Shown here: piece after piece, positions 7,638 to 22,788 of the stretch
Layout: each line of letters opens with the position of its first letter
Numbering within the stretch: the stretch's first letter is position 1
Program-made: the position numbers and the translations under genes
NCBI GenBank assembly: GCA_002722105.1
Contig: PBKF01000011.1
Span: forward strand, 1 to 23,431
Length of the DNA stretch: 23,431 nucleotides
Direction: 5' to 3'
Source of the DNA: Fidelibacterota bacterium
Lineage (GTDB): Bacteria; Marinisomatota; Marinisomatia; Marinisomatales; UBA1611
The notes under the pieces: generated by a model
The model's input: the letters and a program-made list of their open reading frames with translations, nothing else
Told to the model about the DNA's origin: nothing
The model's database searches: none

Positions 7638-8620
7638 AATTCATCCTTTAAGTTTGTGTTAATGCGTTTCTGTACTTCCTTACCGGCATCTGGAAAAGGG
7701 AAGGCGACCCCGGTAATGGTTTCGTAGAGATATATATAGCGACTGGAAAGTTCAATGACCAAATCAGTCGGGGCCTCCGGCAATGTTTCATCGTTGTAGG
7801 GGTCACAATTATCCACGAACCACAGGCGTAGGAATTCTTTATCAATATTTTGAGGCTCCTGCCCCTCGGAAATACGTCGTTCGTAGGTTTCAGCAATCCA
7901 ATATCTGCTGGAATCTGGAGTATGGATTTCATCAATCAACACAATATTTCCATCGGCGTCTCGTCCCATTTCATACTTAGTATCTACCAAGATCATGCCG
8001 TGTTCTGCTGCTTTCTGCTGGCCGAAGGTAAAAAGTTCCAGCGCCTTCTGACTGCAGTAATCCCAATCTTTCTGGTTCATCCATCCTTCGCTCACAATCT
8101 CTGCCGGTGCAATGGGCCGGTCATGGTGTTCCTCCTTTGTAGTCGGTGTAAGCATATTAGTATCTAGTTTTTGGTTTTTCTTAAGCCCTTCTGGTAGAAC
8201 ATTACCACAATATTGTCGATCACCATTATTATAAACCGTCCACAGCGATGTGCTGGTACTACCTGTAATATATCCGCGAACCACAAATTCAATGGGGAAA
8301 ACATCGCATGTTTTTACCAATGTTACATTGGGGTCTGGCACATGAAGCACATGGTTTGGAATAATGTTTTTTGTCTGATCAAACCACCAGGCGCTAGTTA
8401 GGTTAAGGACCTGTCCCTTAAAGGGAATAGCAGCCAGCACGCGGTCAAAAGCACTTTGTCGGTCCGTGGTTATTAACGCAATTTTATCTCCCAGGTTATA
8501 TTGGTCTCTAACCTTGCCGGTCTTTTTGGAACCACTGGGAAGATTTGTTTTAGTGAGGGTATTATTTAATTCCGCCTCGATGCGGTCTTTGTAGTGTTTA
8601 GTTGATTCGATAGCATTCAT
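7634..8620 (-). CDS. purC: Phosphoribosylaminoimidazole-succinocarboxamide synthase (SAICAR synthetase)
   Basis: Condenses CAIR with aspartate using ATP to give SAICAR; cytosolic. The 328-residue product is longer than E. coli PurC (about 237) and resembles the roughly 300-residue long form found in yeast Ade1 and many bacteria. Visible motifs: GKVRDQY, ITTDRQSAFDRVLAAIPFKG, FVVRGYITGSTSTSLW, LVDTKYEMG and IDEIHTPDSSRYW, the last being the usual PurC signature. It starts at ATG 8620 inside the end of the PurQ-PurS gene (23-base overlap) and ends in an ATGA overlap with purE, the next enzyme's partner gene in the pathway. Confidence 0.96.
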   Translation of the reverse strand: MNAIESTKHYKDRIEAELNNTLTKTNLPSGSKKTGKVRDQYNLGDKIALITTDRQSAFDRVLAAIPFKGQVLNLTSAWWFDQTKNIIPNHVLHVPDPNVTLVKTCDVFPIEFVVRGYITGSTSTSLWTVYNNGDRQYCGNVLPEGLKKNQKLDTNMLTPTTKEEHHDRPIAPAEIVSEGWMNQKDWDYCSQKALELFTFGQQKAAEHGMILVDTKYEMGRDADGNIVLIDEIHTPDSSRYWIAETYERRISEGQEPQNIDKEFLRLWFVDNCDPYNDETLPEAPTDLVIELSSRYIYLYETITGVAFPFPDAGKEVQKRINTNLKDEL

Positions 8621-9863
8621 GAGATAGTGGGTTGTATAGTATGTTAGTGTTTAATATGTCTTGTAAAACAGTGTTTAAATTACCGCTATTTACGGATACA
8701 TTCCATATGACGCCACGCTTTAATTTGGTAAGTTCTTGAATTTCAAACCGTTCTGTAAGGGATTCAAATTTTGCACGCCCATGCATATCTTCTTTCTGGC
8801 GCACTAAAAAAGACACTGTGTTTTTATCTGCTTTTGTTTGACTGATAAATTCTTTGTTTGAATTATAAAGCTCTCCTGTGGCATCAATGCGTTTTAAATT
8901 TGCATCCCGGTCGCCACTGGTAGAAATTTCCCAATGAGTCTGGCGGGAAATGGTGACATCGTGACCAAGTTGATTTAGTGCATTATGTACTGACGCTGCT
9001 TCGTTATCGGTAATAATCATATCAATCACCCATTCTGTTGCCTTCGGGTTTGCTATATGTTCTTGCACTTCGTATTGGGGACGGTCATAGAATAATTTAT
9101 GTTTTGTGATCGGATTTCCAAGTTCAATAAACTCTTTCATAGAAGAAAAAATAACATCTCCGTTATCCGTTCGTTCCGGATGAGGCATCATGGCCATAAT
9201 ATTTCCCTGCGTATTGCATACAGCAGCTAGGTTATACATAGATCCGTTGGGATTCGTAGGAAACTCATCCATCACGTTTCCGTTGTCATCGCAGTAGCGG
9301 TAAACGGTTTGCTCATTAGCAATCATTTTTTCCAATAATTCTTCTGGAATGATAAAACGTCCTTCGCCATGGGCTAGCGGTATATTAATAAAGTCACCAG
9401 TCTTTAAATGACGTGTAAATGCACAGCGTTCAGGTGCAATAGACATTTGTAGATTAGCCCAGGTATTGTAATAACCCACACCCACAACATGGCCACCTTT
9501 TACCCGCTTGTTATCTGTGAGTGCCAATCCGACTCGGTGATTTGCCATCCCGGGGACGAGCTTGCTTTCTACCAGAATCTGGGCTCCATTGCAGATGCCA
9601 AGTACTGGCTTCCCTTTATTTGCCTCAATTTTGATCTTCTTCATGATGGGGTCCAGGGCCGCAATAACGCCGGCACGGGAGCGGTCTTCATAGGCAAATC
9701 CGCCCACAATTATATAACCATGAAAATCTGATAGTTTTTCGGCCTGCTCATTCCATAGAAATTCAATTGGGTTCAATCCCACGCGGTGGCAAGCCATGAT
9801 TGTTTCACGTTCTGTATTGGAACCAGGGAATTGAATGATTGCAATTTTTGCCATAGAGCTCAC
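8598..9863 (-). CDS. purQ: FGAM synthase glutaminase subunit PurQ fused to C-terminal PurS-like modules
   Basis: Supplies ammonia from glutamine to PurL for conversion of FGAR to FGAM. Residues about 4-260 are a class I glutamine amidotransferase: IIQFPGSNTERE, GGFAYEDRSRAG, GICNGAQIL with nucleophile Cys91, AHGEGRF, and MMPHPERT with His228 and Glu230 completing the triad. The remaining 155 residues are not PurQ. Residues about 345-420 match PurS (beta-alpha-beta-beta-alpha, ending NILYNPLSHECYRI, compare the family's LL-NP-E-Y ending). Residues about 276-341 look like a second, more diverged copy ending GELYNSNKEF. No separate purS gene is present, so this protein probably provides both accessory subunits. 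GTG 9863 gives a 4-base overlap with the upstream gene; ATG 9854 (MAKIAIIQF) is an equally good start. Confidence 0.92.
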   Translation of the reverse strand: MSSMAKIAIIQFPGSNTERETIMACHRVGLNPIEFLWNEQAEKLSDFHGYIIVGGFAYEDRSRAGVIAALDPIMKKIKIEANKGKPVLGICNGAQILVESKLVPGMANHRVGLALTDNKRVKGGHVVGVGYYNTWANLQMSIAPERCAFTRHLKTGDFINIPLAHGEGRFIIPEELLEKMIANEQTVYRYCDDNGNVMDEFPTNPNGSMYNLAAVCNTQGNIMAMMPHPERTDNGDVIFSSMKEFIELGNPITKHKLFYDRPQYEVQEHIANPKATEWVIDMIITDNEAASVHNALNQLGHDVTISRQTHWEISTSGDRDANLKRIDATGELYNSNKEFISQTKADKNTVSFLVRQKEDMHGRAKFESLTERFEIQELTKLKRGVIWNVSVNSGNLNTVLQDILNTNILYNPLSHECYRIN

Positions 9864-17616: not shown

Positions 17617-18067
17617 ATGCCAGTTCGAATTTTAATAACCGGTGGAACTTTATTTTAAAGATACGCACTTGCGTGAAATATTAGCTCTCGGAAGATCTAA
17701 ACTAAAGGTGAAAGTTCGAACATTAATGCTTATCGATAGTTTGGATATGACCGATGAAGATAGAAAGTTAATTCTTGATAATTGTAATAAGATAGAGGAG
17801 GATCAAATTATCATTACTCATGGCACAGATACAATGACGCAAACTGCTCGGACTATTGCAAATGAAAATTTGAATAAAACAATTATACTCACCGGTGCAA
17901 TGATACCATACAAATTTGGCAGTAGCGATGGTTTATTTAATTGCGGCAGTGCCTTAGCCTTAGCTCAAGCCTTACCCCATGGTGTATATATTGCAATGAA
18001 TGGGCGATATTTTAATTGGGATAAAGTAGAAAAAAATAAAAAAACAGGTGTATTTGAAGAAATATAG
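17617..18067 (+). pseudogene. Short asparaginase-domain protein, disrupted near the N-terminus
   Basis: The reading frame opening at ATG 17617 gives MPVRILITGGTLF and then stops at TAA. The rest continues in another frame from about 17642: ELYFKDTHLREIL, IITHGTDTMTQTA, ILTGAMIPYKFGSSDGLFN, HGVYIAMNGRYFNWD, ending KKTGVFEEI. Together these match a family of about 160-residue single-domain asparaginase-like proteins, in which GGT carries the catalytic Thr and THGTDT the second Thr. About 11 residues between GGT and the LYFKDTHL segment are missing and the frame is shifted. Starting at GTG 17642 would give a 141-residue product without the GGT nucleophile. It is therefore a recent pseudogene or an assembly error. 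It lies 12 bases after the deiodinase-like gene. Confidence 0.75.
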
Positions 18068-18087: not shown

Positions 18088-19137
18088 TTAATCTTGCATT
18101 TTTCTAATCCAATTTTTAACAAGCTCTACACCTTCTTTATGAACCAGTTTTCTGCCCAGTTCAGGCATCATGATTCCAGGGTCTGTTGATTCTATTCGAT
18201 AAAGCATTATTGATTTATCTGGATGCCTTGGTACAATGGTGTATTTCATATCACCCGAGCCTCGTCCTGCTGCAATAGGTGGTTTCATGATCCCTAATTT
18301 TGTTGGATCAGTTTCTTCAACATTCAAAAATAAACCTGATGTTTCTCCTGGAGCACCAAACCGATGGCAATGGGCACAGTTAATATCAATCCAGGCCCGC
18401 GCTCGTTCAGCAACAGTTCCATCTTCGTGATTATCATAATCGGGCGTATAAGGCAATTCAGAAATTGGAGGCAGCCCTTTTATCATATCTAATTCTGACC
18501 ATTTCTGTAGTTGATTCATTATCTCATGCCCATAATCATAGTCATTATTTAGTAGTCTTACTTTTGGTCCAATAGGTACCATTTTATTGTGACTGACATG
18601 ACAACCTTTACATTGATTGAAGTTGGGGACACTATATTTAAAATTGACTTTTTCTCCTGCAAAATTAGTAAATGACACATCCATTCTGTCACCGGCAATT
18701 TCTAAGAATGCATCTGACTGCTCTTCATCCCAAATATAGGGGAAGCCCATCCAGCCATTGGGAGTATGAATAAGTAGCCTTGTCTCCATGAGACGAATAT
18801 TTTCTTCAGGATATCTTAAATCAGCAGGGAAATAAAATGTTTTAATCAGTATGGACTCAATTGGAAAATCAAAGGAACCGTCTATTTGGTAGATCAATTG
18901 TTCACCGGCTGGTAAAACAATAAATCTAGATTTTAGAGCATAATCAGAAAATAATTGAGCTGATATATTATATGGGACTATGCCATCTGCTGGCTGGTGT
19001 TGTGCTATCCGTCCTTCAAAGAAATTATAATCAGATAATTTAGGCTTTGCATATTTAAGTGGACTTATTCCAGAAAGAAGGGAAAACAGAACAAGAGAAA
19101 AAGTAAAGCGATGCACTTTTCTCAAAAAAATAATCAT
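18088..19137 (-). CDS. Exported two-CXXCH heme c protein, HNE_0200/SO2930-like family
   Basis: 349 residues with an N-terminal signal sequence (basic start, hydrophobic about 11-24). The N-terminal half is a beta-rich domain. Two heme c attachment motifs follow, CKGCH at 176-180 and CAHCH at 254-258, with GIMMPELGRK (Met323/324) as a likely axial ligand near the C-terminus. Expected to be periplasmic or surface-exposed and to transfer electrons. This matches the family I know as TIGR03806, reported to occur as a gene pair with a parallel-beta-helix protein (TIGR03805), which is exactly the upstream gene here (ATGA overlap). The biological role of the pair is undescribed as far as I know. Convergent with the asparaginase remnant, 20 bases apart. 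Confidence 0.85.
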   Translation of the reverse strand: MIIFLRKVHRFTFSLVLFSLLSGISPLKYAKPKLSDYNFFEGRIAQHQPADGIVPYNISAQLFSDYALKSRFIVLPAGEQLIYQIDGSFDFPIESILIKTFYFPADLRYPEENIRLMETRLLIHTPNGWMGFPYIWDEEQSDAFLEIAGDRMDVSFTNFAGEKVNFKYSVPNFNQCKGCHVSHNKMVPIGPKVRLLNNDYDYGHEIMNQLQKWSELDMIKGLPPISELPYTPDYDNHEDGTVAERARAWIDINCAHCHRFGAPGETSGLFLNVEETDPTKLGIMKPPIAAGRGSGDMKYTIVPRHPDKSIMLYRIESTDPGIMMPELGRKLVHKEGVELVKNWIRKMQD

Positions 19138-20321
19138 TTTTTTACTTCTAAGACCAATTGGTGTTCACTACCACAATGATGTGGAGATAGGTCTTCCGAA
19201 AAACTAGAAATAAATGGTGAATACCATTCTTTAAAATTGTGTTCTATATCTAGATTTGTAAATCTAGCGCGCCCATTATTTTGAATACATAGCCCTGCTG
19301 TTATTTTTGGATCTTGCATACCATCATAAATAATATCTGGTGTGTTCCTTCCGTATTTAATTGCTAATAATTTTCCAATGTCATAATCTAAGGTGGGGAA
19401 TCCTGGCCATCGCTCATAAACATTATTATATATATGAATATCTGCTGTGTAAGGATTATATAGAGAATCCTTAATTGTTTCTTCTGTCATGAAATAACTG
19501 ACCACACCAGTTCCTACACTTTTATTATTTCGAATTGTATTCCGGTAAATATATATATCTCTGCAGGCTAAAATCATAATTCCTGTACCCGGGAGTACTT
19601 TTCCAACAATATTACCCGGGGGTGCGAAATTGAATAAATTATTGGATTCAATCAGGTTATTAAAAACATGAATATTCCCGCCTTTTTTCTGTATCAGATC
19701 AGGTAAATCAAATACAAGAATACCCCCCGTATTATTATAGGTATGATTTTCGTAGACTTTTGCATTATTTGAATTTTCAATTTCAATACCAGCCACATTA
19801 TCAAAAACAGTGTTATAGCGCACAATGATTTCATTAGACTGACCCACATAAATTCCGGCGTCAGAAGCACCGATCGAAAGTGAATGTTCAATTAACACAT
19901 TATTACATTGCACTGGATATAGTCCATAGGCTCCATTGGTAGGTTTGGGACCTCCTGTCCATTCTGTTTTTAAGTGACGGAAAACAATTCCATCCGTATA
20001 TTGAACCTTAATAGCATCACCTTTTGAATCTTGAACTGTAAAATTTTCCAATGTTATATTTTTGGAATTAGTAATGCTGATGCCTTGCGCTCCTTCTTCT
20101 TGATTGGAAAACTGCAGGATGGATTTATCCATGCCGGATCCACGAATAAACAAATTTTCTTTTCCTTCAATTGATAAAGTACCTAAAATTAGATGGACAC
20201 CATCCGGCACTGTGATGGTATCACCGAACTCTGCTAGAATGAATTGCATTTGCAGTTCTTTTTCCAGATTCGCATAAGCTATGCAAACTAAAAGATGAAG
20301 TGATATGGTTAAATGGGTCAT
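19134..20321 (-). CDS. Secreted parallel beta-helix protein (TIGR03805-like)
   Basis: 395 residues. A short hydrophobic start (LTISLHLLVCIAYA) suggests a signal peptide cleaved near residue 17. The body is a right-handed parallel beta-helix with repeats of about 22-25 residues rich in Asn and Ile/Val: ITNSKNITLENFTVQDS, YTDGIVFRHLKTE, CNNVLIEHSLSIG, QSNEIIVRYNTVFDN, NSNNAKVYENHTYNN, CRDIYIYRNTIRNN. Such folds occur in polysaccharide lyases, epimerases and NosD-like proteins; no lyase active site is recognisable. It is translationally coupled to the heme c protein downstream, the known TIGR03805/TIGR03806 pairing. Divergent from the endonuclease V homologue across 112 bases. Confidence 0.85.
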   Translation of the reverse strand: MTHLTISLHLLVCIAYANLEKELQMQFILAEFGDTITVPDGVHLILGTLSIEGKENLFIRGSGMDKSILQFSNQEEGAQGISITNSKNITLENFTVQDSKGDAIKVQYTDGIVFRHLKTEWTGGPKPTNGAYGLYPVQCNNVLIEHSLSIGASDAGIYVGQSNEIIVRYNTVFDNVAGIEIENSNNAKVYENHTYNNTGGILVFDLPDLIQKKGGNIHVFNNLIESNNLFNFAPPGNIVGKVLPGTGIMILACRDIYIYRNTIRNNKSVGTGVVSYFMTEETIKDSLYNPYTADIHIYNNVYERWPGFPTLDYDIGKLLAIKYGRNTPDIIYDGMQDPKITAGLCIQNNGRARFTNLDIEHNFKEWYSPFISSFSEDLSPHHCGSEHQLVLEVKK

Positions 20322-20433: not shown

Positions 20434-21150
20434 ATGAAGCCTACTCGTTTCCATTCCTGGAATGTTTCTCCTGAAGAAGCATCTGCAATTCAGCTCAATT
20501 TGCGTGATAAAGTTGAAGTTCAACCTTTGCCAAATGATATTGAATTGGTGTGTGGGACATCTATATCTCATGATCCAAATACCAATACAGTACATGTAGC
20601 ACTAGTGGTCTCAAAATTTCCAGCGATGGAATTAGTAGAGTGTCACAGTCTATCAGAAGAAACCACATTCCCTTATGTTCGTGGTCTATTGGCATTTCGG
20701 GAAGCACCGTCTTTGATGACATTGCTGAAGAGAATCCAGTACCAGCCTGATGTAATATTATTTCATTCTCACGGGCTTGCCCACCCCAGAAAGTTTGGCT
20801 TAGCATGCCACTTAGGTGTTTTATTTAATATACCATCGATTGGTGTTGCAGACCGGGTTTTGGTTGGATACCATGATAATTTATCGATAGAGAAAGGATG
20901 CTATGTACCACTTAAGGATAACAAGCAAGAACTGGGACTTGTTCTGCGTGCAAAGGAAGATGAGAATCCTATATTTATTTCTGTTGGGCACAAATCGGAT
21001 CTTTTCACTGCTATGGAATTAACTATGAAATGTATCACGCATTACCGGCATCCCGAACCCATACGCCAGGCACAATTAGCTGTGAAAGCCCAAAGAGATG
21101 GTGAAAATATTGATTTAGAACATGGTAATAATCAAGCGTCTATATTTTAG
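20434..21150 (+). CDS. Endonuclease V homologue with substituted catalytic residues
   Basis: 238 residues covering the whole endonuclease V fold. Normal members nick DNA or RNA 3' to deoxyinosine/inosine using Mg2+ held by Asp-Glu-Asp. The frame of the family is clear: KFPAMELVECHSL, FPYVRGLLAFREAPSL, HGLAHPRKFGLACHLGVLF, IPSIGVA and SVGHKSDLFTAMEL. However the first metal ligand (T. maritima Asp43, in the usual G-x-D-x-S/G) is Ser43 in CGTSIS. The third (Asp110, in DGHG) is His111 in FHSHG. The lysine after IGVA is Asp140. Glu90, Tyr81 and the HPR motif are retained. Probably inactive as a nuclease, or uses different chemistry; substrate binding may persist. Start ATG 20434. Confidence 0.85.
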   Translation: MKPTRFHSWNVSPEEASAIQLNLRDKVEVQPLPNDIELVCGTSISHDPNTNTVHVALVVSKFPAMELVECHSLSEETTFPYVRGLLAFREAPSLMTLLKRIQYQPDVILFHSHGLAHPRKFGLACHLGVLFNIPSIGVADRVLVGYHDNLSIEKGCYVPLKDNKQELGLVLRAKEDENPIFISVGHKSDLFTAMELTMKCITHYRHPEPIRQAQLAVKAQRDGENIDLEHGNNQASIF

Positions 21151-21313
21151 TACATATTTTTATGCTCCAAATAAAACAATAACTATAAGAATTGTAAGTT
21201 TATAGGATAGAGATTAGACTTTTAGCATAATGGTCACTTATTTCTTATTTTATATTTTAGTTATTAATAATAACCTAACATTGTTTTTTTAAAGTAAAAA
21301 TAAAGGAATAGAT
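21151..21313 (+). promoter_or_regulatory. AT-rich gap upstream of the ArsC-family gene, with ribosome binding site
   Basis: 163 bases without a gene. AAAGGA at 21302-21307 lies six bases before ATG 21314 and is a good ribosome binding site that supports the upstream start of the TGA-containing gene. The rest is AT-rich and presumably holds its promoter; no convincing -35/-10 pair or terminator hairpin was identified. Confidence 0.5.
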
Positions 21314-21667
21314 ATGTCTGAATTCACCCTATATCATAATCCAAGGTGAGGGAAAAGCAGGGGAGCCGTGTCGCTCCTCAAAGAAGAAAATATAGATTTC
21401 AAAATTATAGAATATTTAAAAACACCCTTAAACAAAAAAGAAATCTTATCTATCTCTAAAAAACTGAACCTTCCTCCATCAGGTTTTGTGCGAAAGAATG
21501 AAGTAGAATTCAAAGATAATAATTTGAGTGATGAGCTTGATAATGATGAAACAATGGCAGAAGCAATCGCGAAATTTCCAAAAATTATGCAACGTCCCAT
21601 TGCTGTTAAAGGCAACCAGGCAGTCATTGGACGTCCGCCAGAAAATGTTTTAATTTTAATTCGTTGA
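21314..21667 (+). CDS. ArsC/YffB-family thioredoxin-fold reductase, probable selenoprotein (in-frame TGA = Sec)
   Basis: 118 codons starting at ATG 21314, with AAAGGA six bases upstream. The product reads MSEFTLYHNPR, then TGA (codon 12, 21347-21349), then GKSRGAVSLLKEEN and continues with YLKTPLNKKEI, SGFVRKNEVEF, FPKIMQRPIAVKG and VIGRPPENVLILI. This is a full-length ArsC/glutaredoxin-like protein, and the TGA falls exactly on the nucleophilic Cys of the family's HNPRCxKSR motif. A 7-bp hairpin lies 10 bases after the TGA. TGA serves as an ordinary stop in this genome (purC, purL, purM and this gene's own end), so recoding must be local. Selenocysteine is therefore much likelier than a general code change. 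Likely a thiol/selenol-dependent reductase; true arsenate reduction is not shown. A Cys-to-stop mutation or sequencing error is the alternative. Confidence 0.82.
21360..21379 (+). promoter_or_regulatory. Candidate bacterial SECIS hairpin
   Basis: GGGGAGC (21360-21366) pairs with GCTCCTC (21373-21379) over seven base pairs, one of them G-U, closing a six-base loop CGTGTC. The loop starts 17 bases after the TGA at 21347-21349 and has G as its second base. Bacterial SECIS elements lie inside the coding region just downstream of the UGA, with an apical loop roughly 16-37 bases away and a G among its first two bases, so position and form both fit. The local GC richness stands out against the AT-rich surroundings. 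Confidence 0.72.
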
Positions 21668-21678
21668 GAGAAAAAAAC

Positions 21679-22788
21679 ATGAAAAAAACATTATTACTTT
21701 TTACCCTGTTTATCATGTGCTGTGAGCCATTCGTTACAACCTTCCCAGACTCATCTGATGCAGTCATGTATGAAGCTACTGATAAGACCAATGTGGCTTA
21801 TAGTGGAGAAAATATAAAAGTGATTACATGGAACATCCGTTTTGGTGTTGGACGTTTTCCATTCTTTGGCGATTCCTGTGGTGATAGTGTTATTTTAGAT
21901 GATGGTTCCATTGAAAAAATAATGTCTAACATAGCAGACTCCATTAATGCTATGAATGCTGATATTGTGTTGTTGCAGGAAGTGGATGTATCATCGAAAA
22001 GAACAGGCTACATAGATCAGGTTCAATATCTTTTGGACAATACCCACATGAATTATGGGTGTTACGCTTCCATGTGGAAGGCCGATTATATACCTAGTGG
22101 TGGCATTGGACGTGTTGATGCTGGGAATGCTATTTTATCAAAATATAAACTTACAGATCCAGAACGAATCCAACTTAGGCTAAGAACAGATCAGGACGAG
22201 TTAATTCAGTATTTTTATTTAAGACGTAATATATTAAAAGCAAAGGTCCCTGAATTATCACAAGGAGGAAAATCTTTTTATGCTGTGGATATCCATGCTA
22301 CAGCTTTTGCAACAGATGATACCAAACAGCAGCACATTGATAAATATGTTCAAACTCTAGCAACTATTCATAATAATGGTGATTATTTTGTTACCGGAGG
22401 TGATCTCAATTCTGTGCCACCTGGATCGGTTACCGATTTTTGTGAAAGTGATATGTGTGAAGGAGATGATTACCACACAGAAGGTGCTGAAGAATATCAT
22501 AAAGAGGGGAGCTATTTCGAAAACTTTGATGGTGAACCTGATCTGTTGCTTCCGCTTTATAACTCTTACAATGCAGCTATCGATTCGGCAGATGCAAATC
22601 TTCCTGGTCATTTTACCCATGGCCCGAGTACTAGTTATGAAATTAATAATATTAAATATGATAGAAAATTGGACTATCTTTTTACGAACAAAACTTGGGT
22701 AGATGGCGCATCCAGAACGCACCAAGCAGCCTGGGTACTAAGTGATCATATGCCAGTTAGCTCAATTATAAATATGGGAGGTGATTAA
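21679..22788 (+). CDS. Exported endonuclease/exonuclease/phosphatase-family protein, probable lipoprotein
   Basis: 369 residues from ATG 21679 (GAGAG eight bases upstream); an upstream in-frame TTG overlaps the previous gene's stop and is less likely. The N-terminus MKKTLLLFTLFIMCCEPF is a signal sequence with a cysteine pair, suggesting a lipoprotein. The EEP (DNase I/exonuclease III-like, Mg2+-dependent phosphodiesterase) fold is clear: TWNIRFG (Asn52), LLQEVD (Glu101), VDIHATA (Asp204, His206), TGGDLNS (Asp242, Asn244), DYLFT (Asp332) and LSDHMPV (Asp356, His357). All catalytic positions are present. The substrate may be nucleic acid, a phospholipid or an inositol phosphate. An acidic insert around 256-285 is unusual. 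It is followed by an overlapping exported-protein gene. Confidence 0.86.
   Translation: MKKTLLLFTLFIMCCEPFVTTFPDSSDAVMYEATDKTNVAYSGENIKVITWNIRFGVGRFPFFGDSCGDSVILDDGSIEKIMSNIADSINAMNADIVLLQEVDVSSKRTGYIDQVQYLLDNTHMNYGCYASMWKADYIPSGGIGRVDAGNAILSKYKLTDPERIQLRLRTDQDELIQYFYLRRNILKAKVPELSQGGKSFYAVDIHATAFATDDTKQQHIDKYVQTLATIHNNGDYFVTGGDLNSVPPGSVTDFCESDMCEGDDYHTEGAEEYHKEGSYFENFDGEPDLLLPLYNSYNAAIDSADANLPGHFTHGPSTSYEINNIKYDRKLDYLFTNKTWVDGASRTHQAAWVLSDHMPVSSIINMGGD
22777..22784 (+). promoter_or_regulatory. Strong Shine-Dalgarno of the last gene
   Basis: GGAGGTGA is a near-perfect match to the anti-Shine-Dalgarno sequence. The six bases between GGAGG and ATG 22788 are ideal spacing, and the site lies inside the end of the upstream coding region. 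It fixes the start of the truncated exported protein. Confidence 0.8.

Follow-up and report, generated by a model that had tools for sequence, protein, structure and literature searches.

A predicted selenocysteine-containing ArsC-family reductase of Marinimicrobia (SAR406) and its SECIS hairpin

The stretch of DNA analysed here (the window, 23,431 nucleotides) carries an ArsC-family gene with an in-frame TGA exactly at the codon of the catalytic cysteine. We conclude that this gene almost certainly encodes a selenocysteine (Sec)-containing ArsC-family reductase of a Marinimicrobia (SAR406) bacterium, in which the UGA at 21347 is read as Sec. An initial annotation, made from the letters alone, had proposed a probable selenoprotein on the basis of the position of the TGA. 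This proposal is now supported by the alternation of TGA and Cys codons at the site in relatives, by the sel genes found in their genomes, and by a covarying hairpin downstream of the codon.

Results

The gene starts at ATG 21314, with an AAAGGAA sequence ending 5 nt upstream of it (Table 1), and a single frame runs through MSEFTLYHNPR, the TGA at codon 12, and GKSRGAV. After this TGA, 105 sense codons were counted before the terminator TGA at 21665-21667. The coordinates, sequence and ribosome binding site of the initial annotation were confirmed, and its figure of about 105 further codons proved to be exact. When Cys was substituted for TGA, the window protein scored 110 bits with the arsC model TIGR00014, narrowly passing the equivalog cut-off of 106, and 49 bits with PF03960 (cut-off 24). 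It also aligned near full length with the solved arsenate reductases PDB 3f0i, 3rdw, and 1i9d. The window protein does not contain any cysteine, so that without Sec it would lack such a redox residue altogether. The part ahead of the TGA was also compared with relatives. Over the 9 codons 5' of the TGA, 67 sequences showed 188, 93, and 361 changes relative to the window at codon positions 1, 2, and 3, respectively, a coding-like pattern which indicates that the reading frame is more than chance. The YHNPR stretch just before the TGA is conserved in relatives. The first start codon 3' of the in-frame TGA is GTG 21368, and no tRNA or Rfam matches were found in the window.

Table 1. Features at and around the ArsC-family gene of the window.
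Feature	Position	Strand	Remarks
ArsC-family gene with in-frame TGA	21314-21667	+	117 residues with TGA read as Sec
TGA, predicted selenocysteine codon	21347-21349	+	Residue 12, where ArsC has its catalytic Cys12; every locus read has TGA or TGC/TGT
AAAGGAA, ribosome-binding-site-like	21302-21308	+	Upstream of ATG 21314; read from the sequence
SECIS hairpin (predicted), 7 bp	21360-21379	+	Apical loop CGUGUC at 21367-21372, 17 nt after the TGA
False 99-aa ORF	21368-21667	+	GTG start inside the SECIS loop; without the active site; from the ORF listing
Endonuclease V (nfi)	20434-21150	+	Neighbour; beside the gene in some relatives too
Endonuclease/exonuclease/phosphatase-family protein	21679-22788	+	Neighbour; beside the gene in relatives too

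The codon at the site was then read in two sets of related genes. For the phylum set, 245 Marinimicrobia/SAR406 genomes were searched at E <= 1e-8; 83 of them yielded 84 places, of which 83 were read. The site codon was TGA in 68 and TGT or TGC in 15 of the 83, and no other codon was found; the alignment of homologues that had been suggested as a check on the selenoprotein reading thus came out in its favor. The 84th place, in genome G163, contains one TAG and two TAA codons and looks decayed. The second set, from a genome collection, comprised the best 80 of at least 579 relatives and overlaps with the phylum set. Here TGA was present in 11 genes, all titled Marinimicrobia or Neomarinimicrobiota, and TGC or TGT in the other 69 (one of which, L066, is shifted by an indel and was assigned to Cys by eye). 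Scanned viral contigs did not yield relatives of the gene.

Among the best 120 of 1623 protein matches, 60 entries are 96-100 aa long and begin after the site. Automatic gene callers had been expected to start this gene falsely after the TGA, and indeed the active site of the enzyme is lost in these 60 entries. Another 49 have W at the site, and 11 have Cys (four rows by eye). The W rows seem to stem from translation of TGA with code 4, because P0016 has W at the site and the nearly identical gene L003 has TGA. A separate record, P0002, holds a protein that is 98% identical to the part of the window protein after the TGA.

Most genomes of relatives carry genes for Sec synthesis and incorporation. 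After joining the tables by hand, selA was found over the cut-off in 58 of the 68 TGA genomes; among the 10 without such a selA match, 8 carry selB over the cut-off and/or tRNA-Sec (E <= 1e-9). In the remaining genomes, G108 and G137, no selA, selB, or tRNA-Sec was found, and we tentatively take these to be incomplete assemblies. The first 12 genomes of relatives (11 with TGA, and G006 with Cys) contained selB in 10, selA in 10, and SelD in 9 cases over the cut-off, and tRNA-Sec in 9, with eight tRNA-Sec loci confirmed by ARAGORN. All 9 SelD genes have an in-frame TGA themselves (in G003 on a separate fragment), and SelD genes of relatives with such a UGA (L105-L112) show candidate hairpins about 16 and/or about 32 nt after the UGA. 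Genome G002 has two selA-selB places on different contigs (C33 and C15), one with a partial selA, and perhaps represents a mixed assembly. Across the phylum, selA was over the cut-off in 175 of the 245 genomes. The Sec trait is therefore common in Marinimicrobia, despite a 2016 survey in which three SAR406 single cells were listed with orphan SelD (PMC5029168). From these data we infer that UGA is decoded as Sec in the window's own organism as well.

Downstream of the TGA, the window RNA can form the hairpin GGGGAGC-CGUGUC-GCUCCUC, with a stem of 7 bp, a loop of 6 nt, and an energy of -12.0 kcal/mol. A published model of the bacterial SECIS has a loop of 3-9 nt, a stem of 4-16 bp, a distance of 16-37 nt from the UGA, a G in the first two loop positions, and an energy <= -7.5 kcal/mol (PMC13188914), and the window hairpin agrees with all of these constraints. 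A SECIS-like hairpin had been noticed before and, while its identification holds, its placement was loose and is here corrected to 21360-21379. Folding of the single sequence was not significant against dinucleotide shuffles (z -0.93 and -1.43). When the shuffles were synonymous, with the protein kept constant, 0 of 200 were as good as the window hairpin. The significance of the hairpin is thus derived from comparative tests and not from single-sequence folding.

For these tests we considered the stretch after the site in relatives. Against synonymous shuffles, the mean z was -1.27 for 12 TGA genes and -0.02 for 68 Cys genes, and in genes of the phylum it was -1.58 (62 TGA) and -0.03 (14 Cys). 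A scan for SECIS hairpins allowed the loop to start 14-37 nt after the TGA; because of N or short ends in the others, it covered 62 of the 69 TGA rows and 14 of the 15 phylum Cys rows, and the other Cys loci were used without L066 and L078. Values of p <= 0.05 were reached by 49 of 62 TGA genes, by 2 of 14 phylum Cys genes, and by 9 of 66 other Cys genes; being related by descent, these genes are not independent of one another. Two controls are counted twice, since by eye L019 and L052 appear to duplicate L136 and L158 of the phylum set. A hairpin of <= -1.5 kcal/mol with the loop starting at the 17-nt place was present in 1 of 14 phylum Cys genes and 0 of 66 other Cys genes; at the 30-nt place these numbers were 0 of 14 and 7 of 66.

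Covariation was assessed in an alignment (A2) of 39 of the 42 listed sequences with a window-like (type I, 17 nt) hairpin, 38 of them distinct. L147, L151, and L180, which have differing loops, were excluded by hand; an earlier step had removed L144 and L149 along with rows containing N within their first 42 nt. In A2, 90.6% of cells pair and 26 cells are changed on both sides of the pair. The pairing, the number of both-sided cells, and the covariation score were each matched by 0 of 500 shuffles, which do not keep relatedness. There were 3 pairs with a both-sided change, which is not in excess since 171 of 500 shuffles reached this number, and in 19 of the 38 sequences the outermost pair does not form. 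Columns 19 and 28, which belong to residues 18 and 21, read GC in 26 and UA in 12 of the 38 distinct sequences. In this alignment, a replacement of Ala18 by Ser accompanies one of Leu21 by Ile, and the SECIS base pair is kept. It seems, as far as the alignment can tell, that RNA pairing steers the protein sequence at these two residues.

The scan also revealed that the hairpin occurs at two distances from the codon. In the 62 TGA genes, the loop of the best hairpin started 17 nt after the UGA in 40 and 30 nt after it in 18; it started at 16 nt in one and at 22 nt in one, and two genes had no hairpin. Of the 60 TGA genes having a hairpin, 53 show a loop that starts with CGUG. The loci with the second register (30 nt, CGUGA loop) are L127, L129, L131, L132, L134, L135, L139-L142, L152, L153, L156, L159-L161, L163, L177, and L190. 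Of these, L141 has a hairpin with a mismatch that was unscored by the scan; the genes at all these loci are otherwise window-like. When the 19 second-type genes are aligned, 99.2% of cells pair and both sides are changed in 18 cells (0 of 500 shuffles as high). Pairs with a both-sided change numbered 4 (23 of 500 shuffles as high), further pair types numbered 7 without excess over the shuffles (500 of 500 as high), and a slide by 3 columns also scored well (0.409 vs 0.508). In 19 of 19 genes, the loop and its closing pair are made from the Arg codon CGT and the Asp codon GAC; elsewhere in the same genes, Arg is encoded by CGT in 9 of 80 cases and Asp by GAC in 26 of 114. An additional helix of the second type, between columns 10-14 and 25-29, pairs in 98.7% of cells. 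Since its covariation score (0.346) is exceeded after a slide of 3 columns (0.420), this helix is only a suggestion from the alignment.

Genes of the second type share neighbours with the window. L012 keeps purA, a lipase-like gene, asparaginase, and the phosphatase family nearby, and asparaginase is kept nearby in 11 more of the 19 second-type loci. We lean towards the view that these are orthologous copies within one phylum that have the SECIS in two registers (17 or 30 nt), with the same UGA and the same CGUG start, the signal having been rebuilt 13 nt further on. With the UGA unmoved, the SelB of the phylum would have to tolerate a 13-nt shift, and the small extra helix could perhaps fold out the added stretch and so let SelB do this. 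To our knowledge, and after a light search of the literature on SECIS distance, two registers in one orthologous gene have not been described, and the observation looks new. Such a pair of registers offers a naturally occurring test of the distance allowed between the Sec signal and its codon.

A quick, midpoint-rooted tree was made from 98 rows, with the site masked in Sec and outgroup rows; the site column was filled in 15 of the 98 rows (the phylum Cys rows) and came under the 30% rule for dropping columns. All 69 Sec rows, including the window, clustered together with 9 Cys rows in a group of 78 (SH-aLRT 93, not starred); the remaining Cys rows grouped with genes of other phyla. The Sec/Cys label changed at least 5 times on this tree, in which many forks are unresolved. 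In the window, the gene stands in the neighbourhood purL, purA, nitroreductase, short asparaginase, endonuclease V, arsC, and phosphatase family, which is partly kept in relatives: in the 95 loci searched, several of which are the same gene twice, the short asparaginase was found in 28, nitroreductase in 21, and the phosphatase-family gene in 26. L006 has TGC at the site with purL, purA, nitroreductase, and asparaginase alongside. Judged from this shared neighbourhood, Sec and Cys appear to replace one another at a single orthologous site.

Other genes of the window deserve mention as well. The short asparaginase (17642-18067) consists of an N-terminal asparaginase domain standing alone; with 141 aa, it is too small to be a complete enzyme. 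At 8598-9863, PurQ (residues 6-232) continues into a C-terminal extension of about 190 residues without an NCBIfam match of its own, perhaps, as a guess, a PurS-like fusion. A dihaem cytochrome c of the SO2930 family (TIGR03806) at 18088-20321 adjoins a beta-helix protein.

Discussion

Could the TGA have another meaning than Sec? If it were an ordinary stop, the gene would be a pseudogene, contain a sequencing error, or be a real gene that starts at GTG 21368. Single-sequence folding lends the hairpin no significance, gene callers often choose the 99-aa form, and one place of the phylum, that in G163, looks decayed. However, an ordinary stop does not account for TGA standing at the same codon in 68 of 83 phylum genes with Cys in the other 15, or for a conserved YHNPR stretch ahead of it, and we regard this reading as very improbable. 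A reading of TGA as Trp (code 4) would fit the 49 W rows among the best protein matches, but it is at odds with the window itself, in which TGA terminates 7 of the 21 genes examined, and in which frames that are free of stops under code 11 match whole families (purF, purB, purL, purA) without read-through. Moreover, TGG is used 93 times in the window genes examined and never at the site in the loci read, where Cys is. We give the Trp reading still less chance than the ordinary stop. The code-4, pseudogene, and GTG-start readings were rejected on these grounds.

A different question is whether the selenoprotein acts on arsenate. It might instead be a Grx-like selenol oxidoreductase or a peroxidase on an ArsC scaffold. 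Sec enzymes are often peroxidases, and no arsenic operon was found in the window, where pur genes, endonuclease V, and a phosphatase-family protein surround the gene. In addition, known arsenite exporters are rare in the host genomes: ACR3 was over the cut-off in 9 of 68 TGA genomes and in 58 of 245 phylum genomes overall, and ArsB was found in 0 of 245 at E <= 1e-20. This rarity weakens the case for arsenate reduction, and it speaks against a plain detoxification role. On the other hand, the residues that have been tied to arsenate resistance, His8, Asn9, Cys12, Ser15, Arg60, Arg94, and Arg107 (PMC5593903), the last three Arg forming a triad also discussed in PMC3169414, are kept. The window protein has His8, Asn9, Ser15, Arg60, Arg94, Arg107, and Pro108, with Sec for Cys12, and all seven are nearly invariant across the 69 Sec rows. 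The TIGR00014 equivalog cut-off is passed, if narrowly, and the Lys93/Asn60 set of the YffB type is absent. We therefore consider a function other than arsenate reduction to be possible but rather unlikely, and, going by the residues, arsenate is the probable substrate, although with clearly less confidence than we have in the Sec itself.

For the Sec-containing reductase, the following course of events can be envisaged. The hairpin at 21360-21379 would recruit SelB with Sec-tRNA(Sec), upon which the ribosome would read UGA 21347 as Sec. In the finished enzyme, the selenolate of Sec12 would attack arsenate held by Arg60, Arg94, and Arg107, and arsenite would be released with an outside thiol as reductant. 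An outside reductant would indeed be needed, because the window protein and 57 of the 69 Sec proteins have no cysteine. Matches to glutathione-synthetase domains were found in 7 of the 20 TGA genomes tried (out of 68), four of them weak.

Within the PF03960 family, the window protein shares its fold and family with the Spx and YffB branches. It differs from Spx in that the Spx/MgsR model TIGR01617 gives 41 bits with a cut-off of 75, and from YffB in having Gln93 and Arg60 instead of Lys93/Asn60 and in keeping the arginine triad, which was reported to be absent in YffB of Brucella (PMC3169414). Similar in build are the glutaredoxin-type ArsC enzymes (3f0i, 3rdw, 1i9d), which have the same length and numbering and the same His8, Ser15, Arg60, Arg94, and Arg107; here, however, Sec replaces Cys12, most related genomes lack ACR3, and none of the 245 has ArsB at the threshold given above. 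The UxxC arsenate reductase-like selenoprotein (NF041106, PMC13188914) likewise belongs to the ArsC superfamily with Sec first in its motif, but the window protein is of the UxxS type and without cysteine, and NF041106 was not among its five NCBIfam matches.

The UxxS family itself has been known for some time, and the initial annotation was right in recalling ArsC-like selenoproteins from marine surveys. In 2005, 14 Sargasso Sea sequences were reported as a Sec-containing arsenate reductase with UXXS (PMC1088965), followed in 2008 by 'ArsC 1' with 77 sequences from GOS (PMC2398784), and a UxxS arsenate reductase is listed in the reviews PMC9312934 and PMC13188914, with MBT3519430.1 as the example. 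These reports lower the novelty of the present gene, which resembles the reported family in being an ArsC-family protein with Sec at Cys12 and the motif U-x-x-S (here U-G-K-S), in having a bacterial SECIS just downstream, and in its marine source. As for the host, the main texts of PMC2398784 and PMC13188914 name neither SAR406 nor Marinimicrobia, the word 'Marinimicrobia' is absent from the main text of PMC9312934 and 'SAR406' from that of PMC1088965, and our search for literature linking Marinimicrobia, Neomarinimicrobiota, or SAR406 to selenoproteins or selenocysteine found nothing on this point among the papers listed. Thus, the Sec-ArsC family is not new, but its phylum-wide home in Marinimicrobia looks new. 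What sets the present gene apart from the earlier UxxS reports is that it is traced to Marinimicrobia, with a conserved neighbourhood and two SECIS registers, and a home phylum is thereby given to marine selenoproteins that were first described in 2005 from sea-water sequence.
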